Origin: Alphaproteobacteria bacterium
GTDB taxonomy: Bacteria > Pseudomonadota > Alphaproteobacteria > Rs-D84
NCBI GenBank assembly: GCA_017615655.1
Contig: JAFZZS010000012.1
Span: forward strand, 1-64,000
Reading direction: 5' to 3'
Length of the DNA stretch: 64,000 nt
Below, piece by piece: positions 60,171 to 62,811 of this stretch. Within the stretch, counting starts at the first letter, position 1; every line of letters begins with the position of its first letter. Position numbers and translations under genes: made by a program. The notes below the pieces were generated by a model that saw only the letters and a program-made list of their open reading frames with translations, was not told the DNA's origin and did not search any database.

Positions 60171-61124
60171 ATGGGAAGGATTCTTGCGTTTTTTCTGTGT
60201 GCTGTATGTATTTTTTGCACTGGTGCAATAGCCGCAACAACAACGTTGCGACCGTCTTCGTACGTTGATCCACAATCGTATGCATATATGTATCCATACT
60301 TATCTAATGAAATGAGGACCAAGTTGAACCCTGGAACCACAGTTTCACAGACAAATAATCCAATCGATATTATTGTCAAGACCAAACGTATGTCCGCGCC
60401 ACGGCATGTTGTTGCGCGCACCGCAAAAACAGCAACGGCAACCACAACTACGAATACCGCATCCAATACCACCACCACAAAGGCAACAACCAGACGCGTT
60501 GTACAACGTCCTGGCACCGCACGTGTGGCAAAACGCGGTGTTGTGGCACGTTCTGCGGCACGCACCACACGCAGCGACCCAAATGGCAATATCCAAACCG
60601 CCGCGCAAACAACAACGATATCAAACGAAGGTATTTCTTCTTCCAGGTGTTTGGCTGACTATACTGAATGTATGAACGGGTATTGCAAACGCGAAAACAC
60701 TGCATACAACCGCTGTTACTGCAGTGCAAAATTGGCGCAAATAGACGCGAATTATAAAGATAAAATCAACACTCTCGTTATGCAAATCATAAAAATTAGC
60801 AACACAGGTCAATGGACCGAAGAAGAGATGAATGAATACTGGATGGAACGCATTGGTAATTATGTTGGCGAAAATTCTTGGGTAAACCTGGATAATGCAT
60901 TAAATATTGAATGGCCAACTGCTGATGAACGCATACGCGGTCAAAACGCATTTTTAACCGGTCACGAATATTGTGTTCAACATTTAAAAGCATGCGCATA
61001 TATGGCATCAAATTTACGTGATGCATACCGTTCAAAAATATCACGCGATTGCGATACATACGAAAAATCACTTATCAGGGTAAAAAATACTGCCGAGGCG
61101 GTCGTAGAATATTACAGCGAATAA
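60171..61124 (+). CDS. Secreted Cys-motif protein, short paralogue of the 13433 gene product
   Basis: 317 residues with signal peptide (MGRILAFFLCAVCIFCTGAIA). A ~100-residue Thr/Arg/Ala-rich disordered region (TATTTTNTASNTTTTKATTRR) precedes the shared Cys module: SSRCLADYTECMNGYCKREN, then YNRCYCSAKL, as in the 918-residue protein (CxxxYxxCMxxxC, later YxRCxCS). The C-terminal part is helical with two more Cys (YCVQHLKAC, RDCDTYEKSL). The long frame from 60141 is rejected because the promoter covers it. Function unknown; likely periplasmic or surface. Confidence 0.72.
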   Translation: MGRILAFFLCAVCIFCTGAIAATTTLRPSSYVDPQSYAYMYPYLSNEMRTKLNPGTTVSQTNNPIDIIVKTKRMSAPRHVVARTAKTATATTTTNTASNTTTTKATTRRVVQRPGTARVAKRGVVARSAARTTRSDPNGNIQTAAQTTTISNEGISSSRCLADYTECMNGYCKRENTAYNRCYCSAKLAQIDANYKDKINTLVMQIIKISNTGQWTEEEMNEYWMERIGNYVGENSWVNLDNALNIEWPTADERIRGQNAFLTGHEYCVQHLKACAYMASNLRDAYRSKISRDCDTYEKSLIRVKNTAEAVVEYYSE

Positions 61125-61321
61125 TCTCTTTCTGCATTTTCCAACGATTCACACATCAAATTATGACGATATATATTGCGTGCCAAATCATCGCTTATAA
61201 CATTCCAATCTGAACTGTGACCGTATATCAAATTGCATGTAACCGAATCATTCGGCGATTGTGTAATTTTTGCGCAAGATGTTACGAATATCGCGCACCC
61301 CAGTATGAAATACTTTTTCAT
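61112..61321 (-). CDS. Small lipoprotein, o-spanin-like
   Basis: 69 residues with a lipobox (ILGCAIFVTSC). The mature ~54 residues contain DWNVISDDLARNIYRHNLMCESL, similar in flavour to short phage lipoproteins. Its first 74 bases lie out of frame inside the upstream membrane-protein gene, the arrangement of phage Rz/Rz1 spanin pairs. AAGGATGAC precedes the ATG. No Pro-rich region typical of many Rz1 proteins. Its 3' end overlaps the convergent gene by 13 bases. Confidence 0.65.
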   Translation of the reverse strand: MKKYFILGCAIFVTSCAKITQSPNDSVTCNLIYGHSSDWNVISDDLARNIYRHNLMCESLENAERDYSL

Positions 61322-61472
61322 TTGTCATCCTTTGTATATTTACTTTTTTTATAATTGCGTCAGTATTTGCATTTGCGACATGTGCGGCACATTCCGTTTG
61401 TGCAATTTTTCGTCCAGTAAAGTATGCACAAAATACAATCGCCACAACGGTTAGGATTAAATAGAATTTCAT
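61248..61472 (-). CDS. Small membrane protein, i-spanin-like
   Basis: 74 residues starting at ATG 61472 (GGAGA upstream). One N-terminal membrane helix (FYLILTVVAIVFCAYFTG) and a charged helical tail (NIQRMTNEKVFHTGVRDIRNILRKNYTIAE). With the overlapping lipoprotein it forms a pair like the inner- and outer-membrane spanins that finish phage lysis. No holin, endolysin or structural phage gene is beside it; a small housekeeping pair is the alternative. Confidence 0.6.
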   Translation of the reverse strand: MKFYLILTVVAIVFCAYFTGRKIAQTECAAHVANANTDAIIKKVNIQRMTNEKVFHTGVRDIRNILRKNYTIAE

Positions 61473-61492: not shown

Positions 61493-61519
61493 TAAAAAAC
61501 GCACCATTGCGGTGCGTTT
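61493..61519 (-). terminator. rho terminator
   Basis: Hairpin AAACGCACC / GGTGCGTTT (61497-61519) with a T-tract on the minus strand, 24 bases after the rho stop and before the spanin-like pair, which may depend on read-through. Confidence 0.7.
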
Positions 61520-61542: not shown

Positions 61543-62811
61543 TTATTGATTCATGGAACCAAAGAAATCATCATTTGTCTTGGTTACACGCAGTTTATCC
61601 AGCAAAAATTCCATTGCTTCTAATGTTCCCATCGGATTTATAATGCGACGCAAGACATACATTTTTGATAATGTATCCTTGCCGACCAACAAATCTTCTT
61701 TGCGGGTACCAGATTTTGTGATATCAATTGCCGGGTACACACGCTTGTCAGATAATTTACGATCAAGGATGATTTCACTGTTACCTGTTCCTTTAAATTC
61801 TTCGAAAATGACTTCATCCATCTTGGATCCTGTATCCACAAGTGCGGTCGCGATAATGGTCAAACTGCCCCCACCTTCGATATTACGCGCGGCACCAAAA
61901 AATCTTTTTGGGCGCTGTAATGCATAGGCATCAACACCACCTGTTAAGACCTTGCCACTGGATGGGACAACGGTATTGTATGCACGCCCTAAACGAGTAA
62001 TAGAATCCAGCAATATAACAACATCTTGCCCTGATTCAACCAAACGTTTGGCCTTTTCAATAACCATTTCTGCGACTTGGATATGACGCGTAGCCGGTTC
62101 GTCAAATGTAGAAGAAATAACTTCGCCTTTGACACTGCGCTGCATATCTGTAACTTCTTCGGGACGTTCATCAATAAGCAACACGATAAGTTTAACCTCG
62201 GGATAATTTGTTGCAATGGAATGCGCAATATTCTGCAACATAACCGTTTTACCGGTACGCGGTGGTGCAACAATCAATGAACGTTGCCCACGACCTGTTG
62301 GTGATATCAGGTCAATTACACGCGCCGACAAATTACGACCTTTGTCAGTATCGGTTGGAACCTCCATTTTCAACTGTTCGTCCGGATAAAGTGGCGTCAT
62401 GTCATCAAATGAAACACGATGGCGCAATTTTTCTGGGTTATCACCATTTACACGCTCAATTGTTTCCAGTGCGAAATAGCGTTCTGACTCATTTTGTGGC
62501 GCCTCGATTTGCCCTTCGATATAATCACCTGTCTTAAGACCATATTTTTTGATAAGGTTTGGCGACACATACAAATCATCCGGCCCTGCCAAATAGTTAC
62601 TTTCTGGGGCGCGCAAGAATCCAAAACCATCTTGCAAACGTTCCAAAACCCCATCACCAATTAGTGTAATTTGCTTATCTGCTGCGAACCCGCGCATAAC
62701 CGCAAAACGCAGTTGCTGAACATTCAATTGCGATGGGTTTTCGATACCCATATCTTCTGCCATTTTCAACAATTGTTGTGGCGATTTTGCCTTAATCTCA
62801 TTTATATGCAT
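61543..62811 (-). CDS. rho: Transcription termination factor Rho
   Basis: Rho is the hexameric RNA helicase that ends many transcripts. The 422-residue product has the RNA-binding domain with [31 protein letters not shown], Walker A in [13 protein letters not shown], Walker B in [16 protein letters not shown] and the R-loop [33 protein letters not shown] (quoted in parts). No long insert. A consensus promoter lies upstream with a ~60-base leader. Confidence 0.96.

Follow-up and report, generated by a model that had tools for sequence, protein, structure and literature searches.

A probably domesticated phage-type spanin gene pair beside rho in the alphaproteobacterial family Rs-D84

A pair of overlapping genes located beside rho in the small genome (~0.95 Mb) of a member of Candidatus Enterousia (Alphaproteobacteria, Rs-D84) is very probably of spanin ancestry and is, as its conservation shows, a vertically inherited locus of the host that is present in about 150 species. 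Spanins carry out the final, lethal step in phage lysis. The reading that we prefer, with a rough probability of 0.5, is that the pair represents a host-owned spanin of phage derivation, which was captured next to rho and is likeliest used for controlled opening of the cell envelope. Enterousia belongs to an order and a family that are both named Rs-D84 in the GTDB; its genomes measure about 0.75-1.0 Mb and a partner-dependent life has been proposed for it (PMC12306168).

Results and Discussion

The gene pair and its products

The window analysed is the whole stretch of 64,000 nucleotides at the start of contig JAFZZS010000012.1, and the features of interest are listed in Table 1. An earlier note on this DNA had described two genes for products of 74 and 69 residues with an out-of-frame overlap of 74 bases, and its coordinates, lengths and overlap proved to be exact to the base. 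The i-protein, which runs MKFYLILTVVAIVFCAYFTGRKIAQTEC...DIRNILRKNYTIAE, shows a single hydrophobic segment by hydropathy, followed by a near-invariant Cys28, a periplasmic helix and a conserved C-terminal DIRxxLRxxYTIxE motif. A second in-frame ATG for this gene is found at 61493, but the relatives favour the one listed in the Table, and ATG is the start codon of both genes. The o-protein, which runs MKKYFILGCAIFVTSCAKITQS...CNLIYGHSSDWNVISDDLARNIYRHNLMCESLENAERDYSL, has a flexible linker, two conserved cysteines in its mature part and a near-invariant helix, ISDDLARNIYRHNxxC, and the lipobox is intact in all 57 o sequences that were checked. Structure models, both of moderate confidence, predict a long helix (residues 2-55) and a short one (59-69) for the i-protein (mean pLDDT 76.5), and, for the o-protein (mean pLDDT 72), a loose linker that separates a signal segment from helices at residues 36-40 and 44-68.

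Table 1. Features at the rho-linked locus, in positions of the window.
Feature	Position	Strand	Remarks
ORF3, convergent gene for a secreted Cys-rich protein	60171..61124	plus	usual downstream neighbour
o-spanin-like lipoprotein gene	61112..61321	minus	69 aa; ATG at 61321, stop at 61112; lipobox FVTSC, Cys16
Out-of-frame overlap of the i and o genes	61248..61321	minus	74 nt
i-spanin-like gene	61248..61472	minus	74 aa; ATG at 61472, stop at 61248; one N-terminal transmembrane helix
Intrinsic-terminator-like hairpin and T run	61497..61519	minus	between rho and i, 24 nt before the ATG
rho	61543..62811	minus	usual upstream neighbour

Relationship to phage spanins

Neither protein matches any Pfam family. 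In PHROGs, the i-protein of this genome matches phrog_1026 (E-value 2.9e-4) and its o-protein matches phrog_1275 (2.3e-5), both of which are labelled 'Rz-like spanin'. Among the relatives, 12 of 18 i-proteins match PHROG 1026 (best value 5.1e-8) and all 18 o-proteins match PHROG 1275 (best value 1.7e-10). A tblastn search with the consensus of the o-proteins against 50,697 phage records gave weak matches only, five out of ten of which fall within lysis cassettes, namely four genes from coliphages that carry the annotation of an Rz-like spanin, and one unannotated ORF of phage KZY1 that overlaps ORF66 downstream of the endolysin. For KZY1 itself (PQ867851.1, L113 2077-2428), we note that this ORF is an o-spanin gene missing from the annotation and that ORF66, annotated as 'hypothetical protein', is an i-spanin by profile match. 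As the pairs of both KZY1 and phage Fostie match the same two PHROGs, 1026 and 1275, these families are cognate partners. The size of the Enterousia i-protein lies within the range of such cognate phage pairs (74 versus 71-89 aa); its C-terminus is acidic, whereas that of the phage counterparts is basic.

The known systems that come closest are the overlapped pairs of PHROG 1026 (i) and 1275 (o) from Fostie, KZY1 and a prophage of the genome studied here (see below), which have the same families, topology, size and out-of-frame overlap. These phage pairs sit behind an endolysin gene in a cassette, whereas the host pair sits beside rho without holin or endolysin. An overlapped gene arrangement was found in 228 of the 528 phage spanin systems that have been surveyed (PMC6139136). 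Rz/Rz1 of phage lambda has the topology, the function class and the periplasmic cysteines in common with the pair, but Rz1 is a proline-rich protein whose gene is nested in Rz, the i-protein has half the length of Rz (153 aa), and the best matches of the pair are PHROGs 1026 and 1275 instead of Rz/Rz1.

What the pair shares with spanins is thus homology in two subunits, an i-protein with a transmembrane helix and a periplasmic arm, an o-protein with a lipobox, and overlapping genes. What is missing, in the loci examined, is a phage lysis cassette with holin and endolysin. Since this difference concerns context and not homology, the pair is better described as a domesticated derivative than as a phage lysis pair. 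Taken together, the sequence comparisons make spanin ancestry very probable. The earlier note had recognised an architecture of the Rz/Rz1 type and had proposed a profile search against spanin families; the matches of both proteins to two cognate families bear this view out.

Distribution and selection

The first genome set comprised 147 related genomes, 87 of which belong to the same genus. Within these 87, protein searches recovered an i-protein from 77 genomes and an o-protein from 79, usually as a single copy. A profile search subsequently covered 201 genomes of the order and located the o gene in 159, every one of them within a single family: the same genus contributed 145 out of its 156 genomes, and ten other genera contributed 14. 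Across 385 genomes of the Alphaproteobacteria, all matches outside the genus were of a signal-peptide-like kind. Carriers among the named contigs belong to Candidatus Enterousia (E. excrementavium, E. onthequi and E. scatequi), and to MAGs from gut, rumen and termites.

No o match was obtained in 8 of the 87 genomes of the genus in the first set. The assemblies offer an explanation: rho was not seen in three of them (G021, G072 and G075), and in the other five (G011, G012, G024, G035 and G066) the contig ends inside rho or just past it. These gaps are therefore no evidence of a real absence of the gene. In g290, another genus of the same family, five incomplete genomes showed no o match, and this gap may represent a real loss of the o gene.

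The pair adjoins rho in most of the loci examined, those from other genera of the family included, so that the conservation beside rho, which the earlier note had suggested checking in relatives, is indeed found and extends through the family. Moreover, the distances between i-proteins and between o-proteins track those between the Rho proteins (Spearman coefficients of 0.37 and 0.48, respectively; none of 2000 permutations gave values as high).

Among the 72 distinct loci that were extracted, 70 have an overlap of exactly 74 nt, and the remaining two have 71 and 86 nt. Other genera of family Rs-D84 show the 74-nt overlap as well, and it stays constant despite variation in the size of the i-protein, mostly from 74 to 79 aa. 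Over the 72 distinct loci, the i-protein has invariant D, R, L, Y and I residues close to its C-terminal end, and in the o-protein the lipobox Cys, the two mature Cys residues and most of the ISDDLARNIYRHNxxC helix are invariant or nearly so. The median dS was 0.45-0.55 within the overlap and about 1.15 outside it, where many pairs were saturated; it should be noted that these medians include only pairs with dS between 0.2 and 1.5 and are hence rough. Synonymous change inside the overlap thus amounts to about half of that outside, as expected if both frames code. The part of the o gene outside the overlap has a median dN/dS of 0.25. The i gene evolves faster and its comparisons are mostly saturated, but two close pairs gave low dN/dS values, namely 0.09 for L004/L005 and 0.19 for L007/L008. 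These patterns indicate that purifying selection acts on the pair and that both frames are constrained.

The idea that the two frames are chance products, a degraded relic or a part of the resident prophage draws on the small size of the genes and on nothing else, and we give it a negligible probability. The recurrence of the 74-nt overlap in 70 of 72 distinct loci excludes a chance origin, conservation of the two frames extends over about 150 species, and the prophage has a separate spanin pair of its own on another contig, for which reason membership of the resident prophage was rejected. The relic option had been raised in the earlier note, but the pair displays neither decayed frames, nor adjacent phage genes, nor a patchy distribution; it is intact, constrained and vertically inherited. 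Likewise, the situation that would have spoken against the spanin reading, with conservation of a single frame or with one protein from another family, was not encountered: both frames are constrained and both proteins fall into spanin families. The presence of the pair beside rho throughout the family, the constraint on its frames and the missing or truncated rho locus in the checked genomes of the genus without it together show that it is a vertically inherited locus of the host.

Neighbouring genes and transcription

The end of rho lies 70 nt upstream of the i start. A hairpin with a predicted energy of -12 to -37 kcal/mol was found in the gap in all 43 loci with a distance of at most 104 nt between rho and i, the present one included, and these short gaps leave scant space for a promoter after the hairpin. 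In loci with an inserted same-strand gene, a terminator-like hairpin often occurs again ahead of i. No Rfam match to a structured RNA was obtained at the locus. We infer from this arrangement that transcripts of the pair arise by read-through or start at a promoter within the upstream gene.

Several other genes are encountered around the pair. The 3' end of ORF3 shares 13 nt with the o gene. ORF3 is kept beside the pair across the family, has about ten weaker paralogues in the genome and belongs to no Pfam family; we do not think that it is part of the spanin system. In some relatives, one or two genes for secreted proteins are inserted between rho and i. This site is a hot spot at which genes for secreted proteins that are large or rich in Cys have been inserted (L075, L080, L087, L090, L091 and L103). 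Directly behind o, 14 of about 40 relatives have a same-strand gene for a protein of about 310 aa without Pfam match (for example L076, L078, L083, L097 and L101), which is missing from the window.

Lysis partners and prophages

No recognisable holin or endolysin gene was found beside the pair in the loci examined. A reading through the small membrane proteins encoded in this genome also revealed no holin-like gene outside the prophage, although holins easily escape recognition. About half of the genomes of the genus that were searched encode phage-type GH24 lysozymes with strong scores. Their genes have a variable context: several carry a fused Phage_Mu_F-like domain and have a lipoprotein gene behind them, and others are located beside genes for a MuF-Tlde1 protein and a small membrane protein. 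This set looks like a polymorphic toxin array directed against peptidoglycan, with immunity proteins, rather than a lysis cassette. Because of the variable context, the partial fusion to MuF, the frequent lipoprotein behind it and the lack of co-distribution with the pair, GH24 lysozyme was rejected as the partner endolysin. One such toxin-like array is found at G000:C8:32,300-34,500 (L230 2302-4501), and others at L233, L235, L236, L237 and L239; here, a shared N-terminal domain with a Phage_Mu_F-like motif is fused to GH24 lysozyme or Tlde1/YkuD domains, and genes for a lipoprotein or for small membrane proteins that resemble immunity proteins come next.

The HK97/GTA-type portal PF04860 was absent from every Enterousia genome searched, while positive controls were matched. 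Matches to the large terminase TerL (PF03237) were mostly weak and concerned ORFs of about 210 aa in the genus, which we judged not to be terminases. The sole structural genes of tailed phages that we found in this genome are those of a prophage that occurs sporadically and brings lysis genes of its own, and a link to gene transfer agents (GTAs) was therefore rejected. The earlier note had considered the pair to be domesticated, for example for GTA or vesicle release, and had proposed a search for GTA and holin genes. Domestication is upheld by the profiles, the cognate phage pairs and the conservation beside rho, whereas nothing in the genomes searched speaks for the GTA option.

These observations bear on the view that the pair belongs to a dispersed lysis-secretion system of the host, of the T10SS or GTA type, with holin and endolysin encoded elsewhere. 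The genus does possess GH24 and GH108 enzymes and MuF-fused toxins that lack signal peptides and would need an exit. Yet no GTA-type portal is found in the genus, the distribution of the GH24 gene does not follow that of the pair, and no holin-like gene was recognised outside the prophage; we consider such a system improbable.

The tailed prophage occupies about 49.8-75.3 kb of contig 8 (G000:C8; loci L411 and L412). It encodes a GpA-type terminase and a portal, as well as capsid, sheath and tape measure proteins identified by reading, and it ends in a normal lysis cassette with a holin-like gene (67 aa), an endolysin gene (135 aa) and an overlapping spanin pair that matches phrog_1026 (9.6e-8) and phrog_1275 (2.3e-7). 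The absence of phage genes around the pair, as stated in the earlier note, therefore holds for its surroundings, but not for the genome as a whole. A similar lysis cassette, with about 60% identity, is present in G029, and the GpA terminase was detected in 3 of 53 genomes of the genus. Phages of this lineage thus carry spanins of this type in complete cassettes and occur sporadically, whereas the rho-linked pair stands alone and is nearly universal. Capture of the rho-linked pair from such a phage is plausible on these matches; IMG/VR contained no virus relative close to the host version, and a direct donor was not found there.

The occurrence of spanins of the same two families, or of close homologues, in the prophages of this genome and of G029 raises the question of whether the host pair could mix with the spanins of infecting phages and so spoil lysis or shift its timing. 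This would be unlikely, since defence genes are usually patchy and mobile whereas the place of the pair is constant throughout the family, and the o helix is without sign of an arms race.

Possible roles of the pair

It has been reported that phage i- and o-spanins bridge the periplasm and disrupt the outer membrane after degradation of the peptidoglycan, fusion being the current model (PMC6139136, PMC5295617). As the Enterousia pair kept the topology, sizes and partner families, it is likely to bridge the inner and outer membranes as well. According to our preferred reading of a controlled envelope opening, an ancestor of family Rs-D84 would have acquired, at a site beside rho, the i/o pair from the lysis cassette of a phage, and would have retained it without its holin and endolysin. 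The i-protein would reside in the inner membrane with a helical arm reaching into the periplasm, and the o-lipoprotein would reside in the outer membrane, where its helix should bind the i-protein, so that both together would span the periplasm through the peptidoglycan. Upon local removal of peptidoglycan by an enzyme encoded elsewhere, the complex may collapse and fuse or disrupt the outer membrane, which would release cytoplasmic content or vesicles from some cells. Due to the position of the pair behind the rho terminator, expression would be held low and would require read-through.

This explanation is favoured by the profile matches, the cognate phage pairs, the lysis cassettes among the weak phage matches, the sizes and structure models of the proteins, the retention in reduced genomes, the purifying selection, the rho-correlated distances and the terminator, and by the precedents of T10SS and DLP12. 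It is disfavoured by the lack of a linked holin or endolysin, by the toxin-like nature of the GH24 genes and their strong matches in only about half of the genomes of the genus that were searched, and by the C-terminus of the i-protein, which is unlike that of phages. It would also be surprising to find that a lethal function is kept almost universally where genomes are reduced and depend on partners. A lytic or vesicle role is regarded as possible.

A non-lytic tether deserves consideration as well, although we hold it to be less probable. The pair would then form a permanent bridge between the inner and outer membranes that contributes to spacing, integrity or the limitation of vesiculation, and it would fuse membranes never or rarely. 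The pair is near-universal, single-copy and vertically inherited in reduced genomes, the o helix is near-invariant and lysis enzymes are not linked, all of which would suit such a tether. On the other hand, TolB is present, which leaves no obvious missing Tol-Pal system to replace and led us to reject this replacement, and the pair has retained phage-like dimensions and cysteines. The possible uses thus rank in the order of regulated opening, non-lytic tether and interference with phage lysis.

Two precedents point in opposite directions with respect to the use of the pair. In type 10 secretion systems (T10SS), a holin, a hydrolase and sometimes spanins serve release (PMC13284979, PMC10847048), as in Serratia chiWXYZ and the Tc release of Yersinia entomophaga. 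These are likewise phage-derived lysis genes in host use, but the T10SS operon includes a holin and a peptidoglycan hydrolase, neither of which is linked to the Enterousia pair. Conversely, deletion of the DLP12 lysis genes in E. coli increased the output of vesicles (PMC7918800), which would be in line with a tether. The DLP12 module of E. coli K-12 (essD, ybcS, rzpD/rzoD) likewise contains a domesticated chromosomal spanin pair with a role in envelope and vesicles, but as a whole cassette in a defective prophage and not as a stand-alone pair fixed in a family. In the open-access literature that we searched, which is a part of the whole literature, no stand-alone domesticated spanin pair was found.

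Conclusions

The domesticated spanins that we found described belong to whole lysis cassettes (T10SS, DLP12), whereas the pair reported here stands alone and is fixed throughout one bacterial family. Its intact retention, without lysis partners, by about 150 species whose genomes are tiny implies a host use for membrane bridging or fusion. Conceivably, though only tentatively, a viral membrane-fusion machine has become a permanent, non-lytic part of the envelope of this family without holin or endolysin. In any case, the family offers natural variants with which the action of spanins in the absence of these partners can be explored, and the pair may also be relevant to the exchange of material between these uncultured gut bacteria, which depend on partners, and other cells.
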